Origin: Pyxidicoccus sp. MSG2
Lineage (GTDB): Bacteria > Myxococcota > Myxococcia > Myxococcales > Myxococcaceae
NCBI RefSeq assembly: GCF_026626705.1
Contig: NZ_JAPNKC010000001.1
Coordinates: 9,504,001 to 9,568,000 of the forward strand
Length of the DNA: 64,000 nucleotides
Reading direction: 5' to 3'
The position numbers were made by a program, and so were the translations under genes. The first letter of the stretch is position 1; each line of letters opens with the position of its first letter. This document shows, one piece after another, positions 6,545 through 57,196 of this stretch. The notes below the pieces were generated by a model that was not told the origin of the DNA, ran no database searches, and worked only from the letters and a program-made list of their open reading frames with translations.

Positions 6545-7201
6545 ATGAACGCACCGCCCCGCTCCATGCTTCCCCGCGGCCCGTACCTCCTGTGTGACGA
6601 CACCGTCCTCCCGGAGGTTCCGCTGGTGGACAAGGCGGCACGGCTGGTGGCCGGTGGGGCCCGGGTGGTGCAACTGCGCATGAAGCGCACACCGCCCCGG
6701 GAGGCACTTGTGGCCGCGCGCGAAGTGGCCGCGCTGTGCCGGCGCGCGGGAGCGCTGTGCCTGCTGAACGACAGGGTGGACCTGGCGCTGCTGGCGGGGG
6801 CGGACGGGGTGCATGTGGGGGACGAAGACTTGCCTCCGGAGGCCGCGCGCGAGCTGCTCGGGCCTGGCCGGCTGGTGGGCGTCACGGTGCGCGGCGTGGA
6901 AGGAGCACGGGCGGCGCGCGAGGCGGGCGCGGACTACGTGGGCGTGGGGCCGCTCTTCGGCACGACGACGAAGCAGGTGGCGGCGCCGGTGCTGGGGCTG
7001 GAGGCGTTCGCCGCGGTGGTGAAGGGCAGCCCGCTGCCGGTGGTGGGCATTGGCGGCGTGGGGCTGGCGAACATCGCCCGGGTGGCGGCGGCGGGGGCGC
7101 ATGGCGCGGCGGTGGTGTCCGATGCCCTGCTCGCTGGGGACATCGCCGAGCGGGTGCGGCAACTGGTGGCCGCGTTTGAACGGGGCGGGGCGGGGGACTA
7201 G
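6545..7201 (+). CDS. thiE: Thiamine-phosphate synthase ThiE
   Basis: 218 residues, a TIM-barrel enzyme that couples HMP-pyrophosphate and thiazole phosphate to thiamine phosphate. Visible family blocks are VVQLRMKR near residue 42 (diphosphate/substrate region), CLLNDRVDLAL, GVHVGDEDLP, YVGVGPLFGTTTK (the usual G-P-x-x-x-T-x-T-K loop) and VVGIGGVGLANI at the phosphate end. It starts the cluster thiE - C26 amidotransferase - thiD, with 21 bp to the next gene. No TPP riboswitch elements are visible in the 91 bp upstream. Cytosolic. Confidence 0.93.
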   Translation: MNAPPRSMLPRGPYLLCDDTVLPEVPLVDKAARLVAGGARVVQLRMKRTPPREALVAAREVAALCRRAGALCLLNDRVDLALLAGADGVHVGDEDLPPEAARELLGPGRLVGVTVRGVEGARAAREAGADYVGVGPLFGTTTKQVAAPVLGLEAFAAVVKGSPLPVVGIGGVGLANIARVAAAGAHGAAVVSDALLAGDIAERVRQLVAAFERGGAGD

Positions 7202-34100: not shown

Positions 34101-37100
34101 CTCCCGGCTGGAGCTGGCGCTTCAGGACGAGGCTCAGCAGCGGGCTCGGGCGGAAGCGTCGCTGGTGGCGGTCCGCGAGGAGCTCGCCGCTTCGAGCGAG
34201 GCGCGCGAGCGGGTGGAGGCCCGCACCCAGGCGACCCTGACGGAGGCCCGGGACGCCCTGGCCTCCGAGCGCGAGCATCGCGAGCGGGTGGAGGCCGAGC
34301 TCACCGGGATGCGCGAGCGCGCCTTCGGTGCCGACGAGGTCGTCACCCGGCTCCAGGCCGAGGCGCAGTCGGAACGCGAGGGCCGCGTCCGGGCCCAGGC
34401 GGCGCGCGCGGAGGTGCAGGAGGCGCTCGACGTCGAGCGCGAGGAGCGGGCTCGGCTCGATGCGGCGCTGGCTTCGGCTCGCACGGACCTCCAGGGAGAG
34501 CGCGAGGCCCGGACCGGGCTCGACAGCGCCCTCACCCTGGCTCGGACCCAACTGGATGCCGAGCGTGACGAGCGCACCCGCCTCGACGCGGCGCTCGTCT
34601 CCGCTCGCGCGGAGCTGGAGGCCGAGCGACAGGGCCGGAGCGAGGGCGAAGCGGGACTGGCGCAGCTCCGTGCGCGCCTGGAGGCCGAGCAGCTCGCCCG
34701 GGTGGACGCGGAGGCCGCGCTGGCCCGCGTCCAGGCGGCACTGTCCGCCGAGCAGGAAGCCCGCTCGGAGGCAGGCAGCGCGCTGACCCAGGCCCGGTCC
34801 GCGCTGGAGTCGCTGCGCTCCGATGCCGCCGCCCGAGAGCAGGCGCGACAGGAGCGACTGGAGGCCGCCGAGCGCGTCATGGCCGAGCAGCAGCGCGTTC
34901 TCGAAGAGGAACGTGCGGCCGCGAAGGCGCGGGAACAGGAGTCCGAGGCGGCGGTGGCGCGGCTGGAGGCCCGGCTCGCGGAGACCCTGGCCACCCGTGA
35001 AGCGGAGGCCGCGCGCGGCGCGACGCTGGAGCAGTCCCTTGCCGAGGCCGAGGCCGCACGGCGCGCCACGGAAGCCCAGTTGTCCGAGCGCGACTGGTCC
35101 CTCCAGGAGCTTCAGGCGCAGGTGGCCCGGCTGCGCGAGCAGGTCGGGGAGGGCGAGAGCGAGGCCCGTCGCCTCACCGAAGCGGCCACGGCCCACGAGC
35201 AGGCGCTGGCCGAGGCTCGCGAGGCGCTGACGCGTCAGGAAGAGCTGTCGCGCAAGAAGCTGGAGGCGCTGGATGCGGAGGTCGAAGAGGCGCTCATCCG
35301 CGCGGAGCGGCAGCAACGGCAGCTCGAGTCCCTGGGGGCGGAGCGCGCCCGCGAGCAGGAGGAGGCCCAGCTCGCCCTGGAGGCCGCGCGGCAGGAGGTG
35401 GTGTCGCTGCGCGCGGAGCTGGGGCACGTGGTCGCGGCGCGGCAGGAAATCATGCGCCTGGGCGCGGAGCTCCAGCGCGCCATGGCGGCCCTGCACGAGC
35501 GGGGCATGCACATCGCCCGGCTCGACGCGGAGCTGGTGGACGCGCAAGACCGGCTCGCCGGCCAGCGGGAGAACGCCGAGCTGCTCATGGTGCAGCTCGA
35601 GACGGCGCGGCGCTTCGCGGGCAAGGCCACCGCGATGGAGAGCTCGCTGGAGGCCGAGCGCGCCGCCCTGGACGCGCTGAGGGAAGTGGCCCGGGCCGAG
35701 AAGGAGCGGGCCACCGCGCTGGAGGCCCGGCTCGCGGAGGCTCACGAGGGAGCGAGCGCCGCCCGCGCGGACCTGGAGGCCCGACTCGAGGACGTCACCG
35801 CGCGGCGTGCCGCGCTGGACTCCCAGTTGGCGGAGGCCACCGCGACGGTCGACGCCCAGCGCGCCGAGCTGGAGACGCGGCAGGCCGACATCGCCCGGTT
35901 CGAGGCGCGGCAGGCCGAACTGGAAGCGCGGCTGGCGGACCTCTCGTCCTCCGCCGAGGCGCAACGCACCGAGCTGGAGACCCGCCTCACGGAGGCCACC
36001 GCTCGAGCCGAGGCCCAGCGCACCGCGCTGGACGCACGGCTCACGGAAGCCACCGACCGCTTCGAGGCCGAGCGTTCCGAGCTCCAGTCGCGACTCGCCG
36101 ACGTCAGCGAGCGTGCGGAGGCCGACAGGCGTGAGCTGGAGTCGCGGCTCGCGAACCTCACTGCGCAGGCCGAGGCCGACAGGCATGAGCTGGAGTCGCG
36201 GCTCACGAACCTCACCGCGCAGGCCGAGGCCGACAGACGCGAGCTGGAGTCAAAGCTCGCGGACGCCACCACGCGCGCAGAGGCGGAACGTGCCGCACTG
36301 GAGCAGCAGCTCGCCGCCGCCACCGCGCGCTTCGACGCAGACAGGGCCGCCCTGGATACCCGGCGCGCCGAGCTGGAGGCCGCCGCCTCCGAGAGCACCA
36401 CCGCCCTCCAGTCCCTCCAGGAGCGCCTGGGCCGCGCCGAGTCCGAGCGCACCGCCCTGTCCTCCGAGCGCGAGCGCCTCCAGTCGGACCTCACCGTCGC
36501 CCGCGCCGCCCGTGTCCGCCTGGAAGGCCGCATCACCGCCCTGGAGACGACGTCCACCGACGCCGTCCGCATCCTCGACGCCGAGCGCGCCGAGCGCGAG
36601 CGCCTCGCCCAGTCCCTGGAGGAGACCCGCCAGCAACTCCAGAAGCGCGAGGGCAGCTCCGCCGAAAGGCTCAAGACGCTGCTCACCGAGGTCACCGCCC
36701 TCAAGGAGCAGGTGACCACGCTGGGCACGGAGAAGCAGTCCCTCCTCGAGGACCGCGCCGAGCGCGCCCGCCTCGAAACCCGCGTGCGCGAGCAGCAGGA
36801 GCGCCTGTCCGCGCTGGAGGCCGAGCGCAAGGACCTCCTCGCGTCCGTGGAGGAGCTCAAGGCCTCCGCCCAGCCCGAGGCCGTGCTCGAGATGGCCGCG
36901 GAGATGGAACAGCTCCAGACCCTGGTCGAGGAGCTCCAGCAGAAGCTCGCCGCCCAGGAGACGGAGCTGGGCGCGCTGCGGCGGCAGGCGGCCCGCGCTG
37001 GCGCCAACCCCGTCCAGGAAATCTACGAGCGCGCCAACGCCGAGCTGAACGCCGTGAAGAACGAGCTGTCCCGCCGCTCCGCCACGCCCCCCGCGGCGCC

Positions 37101-45110: not shown

Positions 45111-46733
45111 ATGCCCACGAAGCAGCCGCTGCCCGCAGACATGTCGACGCCCCCTGGCCGGGACCAGGGACGGCAGACTCCGTCCGTGCGCGGCCTTCCG
45201 GCGCTGACGGTGGTGGCCCACCCGCAGCTCCAGCGCGTCGGAGACCAGTTGTTGCTGGAGACGCTGGTCACCGACGGCAGGCCCGTGCCGCTGTCGCGCA
45301 ATGCGCCGGACTTCGCGCGCCCCGGCGGCCTGCTGTCCATGCCGCTCGGGGACCCGTTCATCAGCCGCACGCCCATCCAGCTCGAGCCCGGGCCGCGAGG
45401 CGGCGTGCGCCTGCGGGTGCCCGAGGACGCGACGCAGGTTCGCGTGGCCTGGGAGCCCGTCACCGGTGTCCGCGACTTCTCCCCCGAGGAGCTCACGCTC
45501 GGCGTGCCGCTCGTGCTCGCCGACCGTGTGGTGTTGCTGCTCCACAAGACGTCGCCTAGCCAGGCCACGGGGCCGGAGGACCTGGGCATCGTGGGGCAGG
45601 GTGAGGGCATCCGCCAGGTGCGCGACGACATCGCCCGCGTCGCCGACCTGAACGTCCCCGTGCTCATCCGTGGCGAGACGGGTACCGGCAAGGAACTGGT
45701 GGCGCGCGCCATCCACGAGCGGGGCCCTCGTCGCGCCGCCCCCTTCGTCAGCGTCAACCTGGGCGCGCTGGCGAAGGAGCTTGCCGCCGCCGAGCTGTTC
45801 GGCGCGCAGCGCGGCGCTTACACCGGCGCCACGAAGGACCGGGAGGGCTTCGTGCGCGCCGCCCACGGAGGAACGCTCTTCCTCGACGAGGTGGGCGAGG
45901 CCCCTCCCGAGGTGCAGGTCGCCCTGCTTCGAGTGCTGGAGACGGGCGAGGTCTTCCCCGTGGGCGGCCACGAGCCCGTCCGCGTCGATGTTCGGCTCGT
46001 CTCCGCCACCGACGCCGACCTGGAGGCGCGCATCCAGGAGCGGCTCTTCAAGGCCCCGCTGCTACACCGGCTCGCCGGCTTCGAAATCCAGATGCCTTCG
46101 CTGCGCGCGCGCCGTGAGGACATCGGCCCGCTCTTCCTGCACTTCGCCCGGCAGGAGCTGGAGGCCACGGGCGAGGCCGGACGGCTGTCGTCCTCGGAGC
46201 CTCGCACCCAGCCGTGGCTGCCCGCGGCCCTGGCCGTGCGGCTGGTGCGCTACGCGTGGCCCGGCAACGTGCGGCAGTTGCGCAATGTCGCGCGGCAGCT
46301 CGTCATCGGCAGCCGCGGAATGCCGCGCCTGCGCGCTGACACGCGCCTGGAGCAGACGCTCGACGCCGACGCCCTGCCCGTGCCCGGCGCTCCCCTGGAC
46401 GTGCCCGTGCCGCCCGCCGCCCCGGACGTCCCCGAGGTGAAGACCTCGCGGCGCAAGCCCGCGGAAGTGGGGGAGCAGGAGCTGCTGGAGGCCCTGCGCG
46501 CCTGCTCGTGGGACCTCAAGGCCACCGCGGACTGGCTGGGCATTCCCCGTCCGTCCGTCTACGTGCTCATCGACAAGAGCTCGCTGATTCGCACCGCACG
46601 GGACTTGAGCGCGGAGGAAATCACCCGCTGCTTCCAGGAGTGCGGCGGAGACCTCGACCAGATGGTGCAGCGGCTGGAGGTGTCCAAGCGCGCCCTCCAG
46701 CGCCGCGTGCGCGAGCTGGGCCTGGACGCGTGA
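45111..46733 (+). CDS. Sigma-54 enhancer-binding regulator with FHA-like N-terminus
   Basis: 540 residues from ATG 45111. Residues about 40-145 are FHA-like (the RNAPDFARP and SRTPIQLEP elements), suggesting recognition of phosphothreonine. The AAA+ domain (about 160-390) has Walker A RGETGTGKELVARAIHERGP, the sigma-54-contact loop GAYTGA (Tyr instead of the usual Phe), Walker B GGTLFLDEVGEAP and arginine fingers near FKAPLLHRLAGF. The C-terminus has two helix-turn-helix stretches: a Fis-type one (ALRACSWDLKATADWLGIPR) and a second (FQECGGDLDQMVQRLEVSKR, then ALQRRVREL). The stop lies inside a TGACACGTCA palindrome. A Ser/Thr kinase gene is close by at 47.3 kb and might provide the phosphate signal. 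Confidence 0.92.
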   Translation: MPTKQPLPADMSTPPGRDQGRQTPSVRGLPALTVVAHPQLQRVGDQLLLETLVTDGRPVPLSRNAPDFARPGGLLSMPLGDPFISRTPIQLEPGPRGGVRLRVPEDATQVRVAWEPVTGVRDFSPEELTLGVPLVLADRVVLLLHKTSPSQATGPEDLGIVGQGEGIRQVRDDIARVADLNVPVLIRGETGTGKELVARAIHERGPRRAAPFVSVNLGALAKELAAAELFGAQRGAYTGATKDREGFVRAAHGGTLFLDEVGEAPPEVQVALLRVLETGEVFPVGGHEPVRVDVRLVSATDADLEARIQERLFKAPLLHRLAGFEIQMPSLRARREDIGPLFLHFARQELEATGEAGRLSSSEPRTQPWLPAALAVRLVRYAWPGNVRQLRNVARQLVIGSRGMPRLRADTRLEQTLDADALPVPGAPLDVPVPPAAPDVPEVKTSRRKPAEVGEQELLEALRACSWDLKATADWLGIPRPSVYVLIDKSSLIRTARDLSAEEITRCFQECGGDLDQMVQRLEVSKRALQRRVRELGLDA

Positions 46734-46772
46734 CACGTCAAGGCGGGGCCCGATGCGCTGGATGACGTGTCC
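46731..46772 (+). promoter_or_regulatory. Pair of TGACRYGTCA palindromes, likely enhancer (UAS)
   Basis: TGACACGTCA at 46731-46740 and TGACGTGTCC at 46763-46772. Their centres are about 82 and 114 bp upstream of the start site predicted from the sigma-54 promoter at 46824. Such positions are normal for EBP binding sites. The first overlaps the EBP stop codon. Confidence 0.5.
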
Positions 46773-46823
46773 ACCGGGCGCCCTCGCGGCCGCGTCACCG
46801 TGGCTCCCGAGGGCGATTGCCAC

Positions 46824-46839
46824 TGGTACAATGCCTGCA
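46824..46839 (+). promoter_or_regulatory. Sigma-54 promoter of the small protein gene
   Basis: TGGTACAATGCCTGCA has the required GG-N10-GC (46825-46826, 46837-46838) and matches TGGCAC-N5-TTGCA in 9 of 11 fixed positions. The predicted start is near 46850, giving a 42-base leader with GGAGGAG before the ATG at 46892. Confidence 0.65.
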
Positions 46840-46891
46840 ATATCGCGGTGAACACGTTCGTCAGACCCCGAGTGGGGAGGAGCCACGGCCC

Positions 46892-47260
46892 ATGGGCAGC
46901 ATCACCATCCACATCCGTCTCAACGAGGACATTCGCTACACCCCGAGTCCCCTCGTCCGGCAAGGCGACGCGGTGACGTTCAAGCTCGAAGACGTCCCCT
47001 ATGCGGCCGAGGTGCGGTTCCCCGACGGCACCTGCCTCAGCACGCCGGGGCCCTACGAGCTGGATGGCAACTCGCTGTTGCTGTCGTCGTCCCTGCAAAC
47101 CGTCGCTGCGACCGCCGCCGAGGGGCAGTACCCCTTCACGGTGACCATCTTCGACGGCAGCAGCACCTCGACCTCGCTCAGGGTGGGCGGGCAGCATGAG
47201 GTGAAGAAGGGCGGCATCGACGTGTCGACGGAGCCGCCCAAAGACCCCGAGAAGAAGTAG
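46892..47260 (+). CDS. Small beta-rich protein, likely sigma-54 controlled
   Basis: 122 residues from ATG 46892, with GGAGGAG upstream. It begins MGSITIHIRLNEDIRYTPSP, contains alternating hydrophobic strands (DAVTFKLEDVPYAAEVRF, QYPFTVTIFDG) and ends in a Lys/Glu/Pro tail PPKDPEKK. No signal peptide, Cys only one. It looks like a small beta-sandwich similar to immunoglobulin-type modules, but I do not recognise a family. It lies between the EBP gene and the convergent kinase gene (9-bp gap), and its promoter is the sigma-54 type, which suggests it is a main target of the EBP. Confidence 0.75.
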   Translation: MGSITIHIRLNEDIRYTPSPLVRQGDAVTFKLEDVPYAAEVRFPDGTCLSTPGPYELDGNSLLLSSSLQTVAATAAEGQYPFTVTIFDGSSTSTSLRVGGQHEVKKGGIDVSTEPPKDPEKK

Positions 47261-47269
47261 CGGCGTCGG

Positions 47270-50965
<3,696 letters not shown>

Positions 50966-54952: not shown

Positions 54953-56800
54953 TCACTTCTCGATGGTGTCGGCGGTGGGGTTGCCCTGCTGCGTCGTCAC
55001 GCCGACGGCGTCACCGACAATGTGGAACTCCACGCGGCGGTTCTTCGCGCGGCCTTCCTTGGTCTTGTTGTCCGCGATGGGCTTCTCGGGGCCGAAGCCC
55101 TTCGGCTCCAGGCGCTCGACCGCCACCGACTTGCCCACCAGGTACTTCACCACCGCCTCCGCGCGGCGCTGGGACAGGTCGCGGTTGTAGTCGGCGTTGC
55201 CGGTGTTGTCGGTGTGGCCCTCGATGCGCATCTTCTCGATTTCAGGATGCGTGGCGAGGATGTTGGCCACCGTGTCGAGCAGCTTGAAGCTGCGCGGGCT
55301 GATGAGGTCCTTGTTGTTCTCGAAGTAGACCGTCTCGAGGACGCGAATCTGGCCCTCGCCAATCTGCGCCAACTGCTTGCTCTTGCAGCCGTGGTTCTTC
55401 TCGGTGCCCGGCTCGTCGGGGCAGTTGTCCAGCCGGTCCACGAGGCCGTCGCTGTCACGGTCCTTGTCCGGGCAGCCGCGGTTCTCCTTCGGGCCCGCCT
55501 CGTTGATGCAGGCGTCGCGCGCGTCGGCGATGCCGTCCGCGTCGTTGTCCGGGTCCGGGCAGCCGTTGGTGTCCTCGAAGCCGTCCGCGTCCTCCGCCTC
55601 GCGCGGGCAGGAGTCCTTGGAGTCGGCGATGCCGTCCTTGTCGGTGTCCGGGTCGTCCGGGCAGCCGTCTTCATCTTCGAAGCCGTTCGTGTTCTCCGGC
55701 TGGGAGGCGCAGCGGTCGGCCAGGTTGAGGATGCCGTCCTGGTCGTCGTCGCCGTCCGCGCAGCCGTCGAGCTGGGCGAGGCCCTTGGAAGAGGGGCAGC
55801 GGTCCGCGACGTTCTTCACGCCGTCACCGTCCGCGTCGAGGTCGGGGCACCGCGCTACGTCGTACGACTGGCCCTCCACGCAGCGGGCCGCGCTGCCGGA
55901 CTCCGGGCCGAAGGTCATGCCCGCGAGCACGCGGAAGTTCGGAGTGCCGGGCGTCTGGCCGAAGCCGGGGCCGCCCATGATGTACACCTCGGAGTCTGCG
56001 CCGGTGCGCGCACGCAGGCCGAGCAGCACCTCCATGGACTCCGGCGCGTCCGCGAACGGCAGGGTGCCGCGCACCACCAACTCCTCCTTGAGGCCGAAGA
56101 GGCCGGCGGAGAGGTTGACGCCGCCGTTCATCTCCACGCCCATCTCGTCGCGCAGCGGCTGCGTCGCGGGGGAAAGGGCGTACGTCTTGGTGCGCACCAG
56201 CGCGCCCACGTCCGCGCCCACGCGCCAGGTGCCGCCCAGCGCCTTGCCCAGGCCCACGCGCGGCGAGAAGACGAAGCCGTCGTCCTTGGTGAGCACCTCG
56301 GAGTTGCCCACGGGCAGCGCCACGCCCAGGTGCACGGCGAGGTCCAACGGCCCCTCATCCGCCTCGGAGAAGATGCCCGCACGGCCCTGCAGCCACGGGG
56401 TGCCGAGTCCCGCCGTCTCCGGCGTCGCCACGCCGAGCACCGAGGTGTCCGGGCCCCACTGCGTGACGATGGGCACCTGCGCGCCCAGCTCCAGCCAGTC
56501 GGTGACGGCATACGCGCCGCTCAGGTGCACCGTCACGCGGTCGCTGACGATGACGCCCTGCCGCTCGTCGCGCTCGAGGAGCACCAGCGGCTCGTTCTCG
56601 TAGTGCGCGGTGAGGGCGAGGCGATACTGGCCCTTGTCGAGCAGATCTCCGGTGGACAGCACGAGGCTGTCCTTCGCCGCGGGGTTGAGTTGCAGCCGCT
56701 CCAGCTCGATGCTGGGAATGCGCTGCGCCTGGGCCTGGACACTGGATGCCCAGAGGACCGCCAGTCCCCCAAGCCAGAAATGATTCCTACGTAGAAACAA
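54953..56800 (-). CDS. OmpA-family protein with thrombospondin type 3-like repeats
   Basis: 615 residues from TTG 56800 (GGAGG five bases before); a GTG at 56812 would add four residues. The signal peptide ends AQAQ. An N-terminal beta-barrel-like domain (about 25-300) is followed by Asp-rich calcium repeats (DLDADGDGVKNVADRCP, then DTDKDGIADSKDSCP and similar, about 310-470) and an OmpA C-terminal peptidoglycan-binding domain (about 480-600: MRIEGHTDNTGNADYNRDLS, QRRAEAVVKYL, KNRRVEFHIV). It should bridge outer membrane and peptidoglycan. It is first in an operon with the Cys-rich lipoprotein gene and has its own sigma-54-type promoter. Confidence 0.92.
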   Translation of the reverse strand: MFLRRNHFWLGGLAVLWASSVQAQAQRIPSIELERLQLNPAAKDSLVLSTGDLLDKGQYRLALTAHYENEPLVLLERDERQGVIVSDRVTVHLSGAYAVTDWLELGAQVPIVTQWGPDTSVLGVATPETAGLGTPWLQGRAGIFSEADEGPLDLAVHLGVALPVGNSEVLTKDDGFVFSPRVGLGKALGGTWRVGADVGALVRTKTYALSPATQPLRDEMGVEMNGGVNLSAGLFGLKEELVVRGTLPFADAPESMEVLLGLRARTGADSEVYIMGGPGFGQTPGTPNFRVLAGMTFGPESGSAARCVEGQSYDVARCPDLDADGDGVKNVADRCPSSKGLAQLDGCADGDDDQDGILNLADRCASQPENTNGFEDEDGCPDDPDTDKDGIADSKDSCPREAEDADGFEDTNGCPDPDNDADGIADARDACINEAGPKENRGCPDKDRDSDGLVDRLDNCPDEPGTEKNHGCKSKQLAQIGEGQIRVLETVYFENNKDLISPRSFKLLDTVANILATHPEIEKMRIEGHTDNTGNADYNRDLSQRRAEAVVKYLVGKSVAVERLEPKGFGPEKPIADNKTKEGRAKNRRVEFHIVGDAVGVTTQQGNPTADTIEK

Positions 56801-56875
56801 GGCTTCCTCCACGTTCCGCGTGCCCCCCTCTGGTGCACGCGTCCCGCTCGCTGCTTACGGGGTTTGCGGCCCCTG

Positions 56876-56891
56876 TGCACGCATTGAGCCA
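56876..56891 (-). promoter_or_regulatory. Sigma-54 promoter of the OmpA/Cys-rich operon
   Basis: On the minus strand TGGCTCAATGCGTGCA has GG-N10-GC and matches TGGCAC-N5-TTGCA in 9 of 11 fixed positions. Its spacer AATGC is the same as in the promoter at 46824. The predicted start is near 56865, about 65 bases before the TTG start at 56800. Confidence 0.55.
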
Positions 56892-56966
56892 TGCGCAAGG
56901 GGGAGGCACCTTCCGAGGGAGATCTGCGCGAAACGGGCACCCGGGGCGCGCGGTGGGGCGGTTCCT

Positions 56967-57016
56967 GACGTGTCAAAGGCCCGGCGACACGTCACCCCGC
57001 GGCGCATTGACGCGTC
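56967..57016 (-). promoter_or_regulatory. Three TGACRYGTCA-type sites, likely enhancer array
   Basis: TGACGTGTCA at 56967-56976, CGACACGTCA at 56986-56995 and TGACGCGTCA at 57007-57016. Centres are about 106, 125 and 146 bp upstream of the predicted OmpA-operon start. The first two also form a 9-bp inverted repeat (56967-56975 with 56987-56995). This 400-bp gap has no other gene-like content. Confidence 0.5.
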
Positions 57017-57196
57017 AGCCAGGTGTCAGGACGGGTCTACACCCGTGCTGGAATCAGATTCTCAAAGACTGGGAGGCCCACCGCCTTGTTTGCGAGAGGC
57101 TTCTGTTGTCACCCCATGTCAGGGGCAACCCGGTGGACGGGGCTTCGCCCTGCCGCGAGTAGATGGGGAAGATCCGCGTCCCAGCCCCTCGGGGAG

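Follow-up and report, generated by a model that had tools for sequence, protein, structure and literature searches.

The question raised by this locus is whether the enhancer-binding protein (EBP) encoded in it acts on its own neighbour, and which DNA sites it would use. The window, that is the whole stretch of 64,000 nucleotides analysed here (contig NZ_JAPNKC010000001.1 of Pyxidicoccus sp. MSG2, positions 9,504,001 to 9,568,000), belongs to the 13.3 Mb genome of a soil-dwelling predator of the Myxococcus/Pyxidicoccus group, and an initial annotation had placed a sigma-54 promoter with two upstream palindromes between an EBP gene and a small downstream gene. NtrC, NifA and other EBPs bind as dimers to palindromic upstream sites and contact sigma-54 polymerase, with effects of helical phase. 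To our knowledge, myxobacteria possess dozens of EBPs, few of which have known sites.

The EBP gene (45111..46733, plus strand, likely start ATG 45111) encodes an FHA-type sigma-54 activator, predicted to combine an FHA fold, an AAA+ domain and tandem helix-turn-helix (HTH) units. The AAA+ sigma-54 interaction domain is recognised by Pfam (Sigma54_activat, PF00158, 2.2e-58), as is a C-terminal Fis-type HTH (HTH_8 match in the full-length protein), and the GAYTGA loop (of GAFTGA type), GETGTGKE and LFLDE are all present and kept across the EBP alignment. In the AF2 model, the C-terminus appears as two tandem three-helix Fis-like HTH units, the second of which is weak by sequence (E 0.059). Residues 32-159 of the same model are predicted to adopt an FHA fold, an identity taken solely from fold comparison, with FHA chains as the top structure matches (best match Z 11.8, rmsd 3.3, 110 aligned); Pfam and PDB profile searches with this N-terminal domain returned no FHA or other match. 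The Ser-Arg of the SxxH region is invariant and the His position is occupied by Pro, and with such an atypical pocket, lacking a clear SxxH histidine, phosphothreonine binding by this domain is uncertain. A Foldseek search with the whole EBP model led to AAA+ chains with poor superposition, and the low-confidence AAA+ region (pLDDT under 50) was left uninterpreted. The nearest named relative is from Pyxidicoccus caerfyrddinensis, at 95% identity.

The region downstream of the EBP gene largely bears out the initial annotation, with two corrections. Of its two TGACRYGTCA sites, palindrome 1 (TGACACGTCA, 46731..46740, plus strand), identified by sequence scan and in orthologues, is exact, whereas palindrome 2 (TGACGTGTCC, 46763..46772, plus strand), which starts 32 bp after palindrome 1 and 61 bp before the -24/-12 element, has one mismatch, at the last base. 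Their centres do lie near -82 and -114 when the GC is set at -12. The EBP stop codon TGA (46731-46733) forms the first three bases of palindrome 1, an overlap shared by 13/120 EBP loci. A degenerate middle site (CGATGCGCTG, 46751..46760, plus strand) is positioned at +20 and is better kept in sister species, as TGACGCACTG or TGACGTGTCG, than in the window. The predicted sigma-54 -24/-12 element (TGGTACAATGCCTGCA, 46824..46839, plus strand; CTGGTACggtgcCTGCAA in orthologues) is where it had been placed, but the reported 9-of-11 match becomes 8/11 on recounting against TGGCACG-N4-TTGCW (9/12 counting the final W). GG and GC are intact at -24 and -12, the 10-bp spacer is present and the element is conserved, and transcription from it would depend on rpoN. 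The leader has the good ribosome-binding site ascribed to it (GGGGAGGAG, 46874..46882, plus strand), with AGGAGCC conserved among orthologues, upstream of ATG 46892, and the gene that follows (46892..47260, plus strand) does encode 122 aa.

Two lines of evidence favour the proposed binding of the EBP to these neighbouring sites: their co-occurrence over 96 genomes, and the match between EBP clade and site flank. With presence of the EBP family defined as E below 1e-180, strict TGAC pairs occurred in 62/64 family genomes with the EBP family and in 0/32 without it (Fisher 1.9e-23, a value inflated by phylogeny). The 32 genomes include some near 10 Mb, and no strict TGAC pair was seen in two genomes that have the EBP family. 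It is highly probable, on these and the following observations, that the EBP gene belongs, together with the intergenic region, to a kinase-linked sigma-54 module with a wider regulon. EBP dimers would bind the 10-bp TGACRYGTCA palindromes, usually present as 2-3 copies on a single helix face, through the C-terminal tandem HTHs, with Q536 and R540 in the last recognition helix possibly reading the outer T:A pair. The AAA+ ring would then contact sigma-54 RNA polymerase at the -24/-12 element, in fixed helical phase downstream of the palindromes, and the promoter of the 122-aa gene would be opened. The window EBP, alone or with a close TGAC-class paralogue, may also activate other phased promoters, including that of an OmpA/TSP3 gene in the window and, elsewhere (own genome or relatives), those of secreted trypsin-like proteases, a class 3 lipase, mechanosensitive channels and an amine oxidase. 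A neighbouring Ser/Thr kinase would probably signal to the EBP via the FHA domain.

Covariation between EBPs and their sites is the strongest evidence for the predicted reading of the palindromes by the EBP. Paralogous EBPs of one clade, about 60-65% identical, adjoin CGACRYGTCG sites, not TGAC..GTCA. When EBPs were classed as T (50) or C (25) by the flank of the phased site belonging to each, the label required a single change on the 120-protein tree, compared with a mean of 21 after shuffling and 0/500 shuffles as low. Column comparison of the T-class (n=50) and C-class (n=25) revealed five positions with zero overlap. Two of these, Q536 and R540 (codons within 46698..46712, plus strand, counted from 45093), lie within the last recognition helix as predicted (532-541), separated by one turn; C-class EBPs have G, R or N (once T) at position 536 and mostly K at 540. 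Since the C-class is one clade, and partly shared ancestry is possible, these residues are candidates for the specificity determinants and not proof. Across the genus, hand counts of other paralogues correlate with CGAC-pair counts (Spearman 0.54). A C-type-like palindrome, AGACATGTCG, is also found at 45137-45146, within the 5' end of the EBP reading frame (CGACATGTCG in relatives), and is kept in many TGAC-class EBPs; the lone CGACATGTCG/AGACATGTCG was not counted as a site, because it encodes conserved residues and is probably codon-driven.

An alternative is that the main activator is a close TGAC-class paralogue, or a mixture of paralogues, and not the window EBP. The own genome holds such a protein (C1 12340023-12341567), 80% identical to the window EBP, encoded beside an MscS-like gene, of the same site class and with its own TGAC sites and phased promoter. 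This account is nonetheless improbable: the regulon and the same intergenic arrangement are still present where the window EBP's orthologue is the only family member in the genome. Three genomes with a single family EBP, of the TGAC-class (G066, G067 and G074), contain 13, 7 and 5 TGAC pairs, respectively, and 0 CGAC pairs.

Conservation of the arrangement was assessed in 120 distinct EBP loci collected from family genomes, by seeking a palindrome followed at 45-110 bp by a strong -24/-12 element, within 220 bp of the EBP stop. Both elements were found in 60/120 loci and in 36/39 of the loci closest to the window EBP (at least 73.5% identity), compared with 0/120 loci in each of 20 rounds of dinucleotide shuffling. 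Orthologous intergenic regions carry CTGGTACggtgcCTGCAA and palindromes at a spacing of ~31-33 bp, a third site frequently lying between them, and their indels amount to whole helical turns. The initial annotation had made its reading depend on retention of the palindromes and the -24/-12 element in these regions, and both are retained. No palindromes were found after the EBP in distant homologues (L080, L081) or at three further loci (L077, L079, L082). In eight Corallococcus-type orthologues the -24/-12 element is kept directly after the EBP stop, and no palindrome is present within 130 bp upstream of the promoter. Loci of Corallococcus-type genomes without palindromes (L174-L183) may point to a different site or to lost control.

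On the scale of the genome, TGACRYGTCA occurs 26 times in the own genome vs 3 times for a reversed-pattern control, and palindrome pairs 8-38 bp apart 20 times vs 2. Within the window alone, the excess of exact or 1-mismatch palindromes is marginal (11 vs 6.5), and one of them, at 35228, within coding sequence and with no promoter, was regarded as due to chance. Some palindrome clusters of the own genome have no good -24/-12 element (L014/L158, L013/L157). Three CGACACGTCG palindromes in 13-bp steps, out of the usual phase, are located ~1.6 kb before the window (C1:9502334-9502369).

A composite search of 27 genus genomes, for TGACRYGTC followed by TGGYNC-N5-YTGCW, yielded 55 matches with short gaps and 86 with long gaps, vs 1 and 3 in controls. 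Start-to-start distances keep almost entirely to helical steps near 49, 60, 71, 82, 93 and 103 bp, with values of 48-49, 59-62, 70-73, 79-83, 90-94 and 100-105 bp, and the sole off-step match, at 87, is in apparent coding sequence. Over 26 promoter families, a period of 10.5 bp gave a Rayleigh R of 0.81, a value reached in none of 5000 simulations, in which the period was also optimised; the families and the lists of distances were compiled manually, and related genomes are only partly independent. Spacings from site to site are likewise 20-22, 31-33 and 40-43 bp, with 99% of the 75 listed TGAC pairs within 1.5 bp of 21, 31.5 or 42.

It is very improbable that the palindromes belong to an unrelated regulator, such as a repressor or an architectural protein, and that the EBP uses other sites. 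Many dimeric repressors typically use short perfect palindromes, and the Corallococcus-type promoter with no palindromes would fit such a reading, yet it leaves the helical phase, the co-occurrence with the EBP family and the EBP-clade-specific flanks unexplained. That the -24/-12 match is a chance occurrence in GC-rich DNA, with no sigma-54 promoter, is scarcely credible given that the element is conserved and phased both in orthologues and in non-homologous promoters, although matches with up to 3 mismatches are no more frequent in the window than expected (96 vs 104), and the window scan by itself was dropped as evidence.

The kinase-linked module is predicted to extend beyond the single promoter of the initial annotation to a regulon that includes a second promoter in the window. 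There, a cluster of palindromes conserved in the genus (TGACGCGTCA, TGACGTGTCG and TGACACGTCA in minus-strand reading, 56966..57017) precedes a second putative sigma-54 element (TGGCTCAATGCGTGCA, 56876..56891, minus strand; 84 bp from the nearest palindrome), upstream of a gene for an OmpA / thrombospondin type 3 repeat (TSP3) protein with a weak TraB-like match (54953..56812, minus strand). At least two palindromes ~41-44 bp apart plus a -24/-12 element are present at this promoter in 27/27 genus genomes. The distance from palindrome to promoter is near 84, 62 or 50 bp across these genomes, and deletions have therefore removed whole helical turns.

The 122-aa protein has no Pfam or NCBIfam family and is modelled as a small beta-sandwich, cupredoxin-like (Z 8.5); conserved copper ligands are not evident and a copper function is not claimed. 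At three loci (L265, L270, L286) the small target gene is tandemly duplicated, and every copy has palindromes and a sigma-54 element of its own. Predicted TGAC-type targets elsewhere encode trypsin-like proteases, in several species including the own genome, as well as MscS-like channels, a class 3 lipase and an amine oxidase. CGAC-type targets comprise another class 3 lipase, a PA-IIL-like lectin, small beta proteins and kinases. Many of the predicted targets look exported or surface-linked, and a role in predation or nutrient release might be guessed at.

The putative source of the signal lies immediately downstream, where a convergent gene (47270..50800, minus strand, 5' end approximate) encodes a Ser/Thr kinase with TPR repeats (Pkinase 3.7e-39 plus TPR, Pfam). 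Part of such a kinase-TPR gene is found within ~2.5 kb in 59/86 EBP loci with enough flank, and is downstream and convergent, as in the window, in 57 of the 59 cases. Archangium-type genomes carry C-type sites and a phased promoter at the kinase gene itself. The kinase neighbourhood and the C-type sites at kinase genes make it likely that the kinase controls the EBP through its FHA domain.

Compared with NtrC and NifA, the system proposed here would use a shorter palindrome, tandem Fis-like HTHs and an FHA domain in place of a receiver or GAF domain. Jelsbak, Givskov and Kaiser are said to have described FHA-domain enhancer-binding proteins of Myxococcus xanthus in 2005. The M. xanthus proteins resemble the window EBP in their FHA domain, sigma-54 activator part and sigma-54 regulon, and are from the same bacterial group; no binding site for them appears in the searchable literature, whereas the present analysis proposes a 10-bp palindrome in two site classes, together with a regulon and tandem HTHs. 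FHA-EBPs and sigma-54 regulons are already known in myxobacteria, from works cited in PMC12288465 and PMC6971385, and the cis code here is unusually clear. Nla28 of M. xanthus recognises 8-bp tandem half sites, CT(C/G)CG(C/G)AG (PMC7910581), and its regulon (PMC7910581, PMC9765219) likewise has defined sites upstream of many myxobacterial sigma-54 promoters, although both the site and the EBP are different. Literature text searches for the site sequences, with a scope that excluded the 2005 FHA-EBP paper, found no myxobacterial report, and the novelty of the palindrome site is provisional.

A broader reading, to which we incline with some reserve, is that a kinase-linked FHA-EBP family in Myxococcaceae uses a paralogue-specific cis code, with the same GACRYGTC core throughout, an outer T:A or C:G pair read by residues 536 and 540 of the second HTH, and strict helical phase to the -24/-12 element. 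Parallel regulons, of secreted proteases and lipases and of lectin-like and membrane proteins, would in this way be insulated within one genome. The target list of a so-far uncharacterised activator family can now be read from the genome, and this one EBP family gains a readable site and a two-residue specificity hypothesis. Ser/Thr kinases would be linked to defined sigma-54 target genes, and some 26 promoter families form a natural collection in which the helical phasing of enhancers relative to sigma-54 promoters can be studied. Next to C-class EBPs, small genes (L147 4221-4646 and L152 about 6840-7001) encode products that start MSKNQ or MLSKNQ and resemble peptide precursors.
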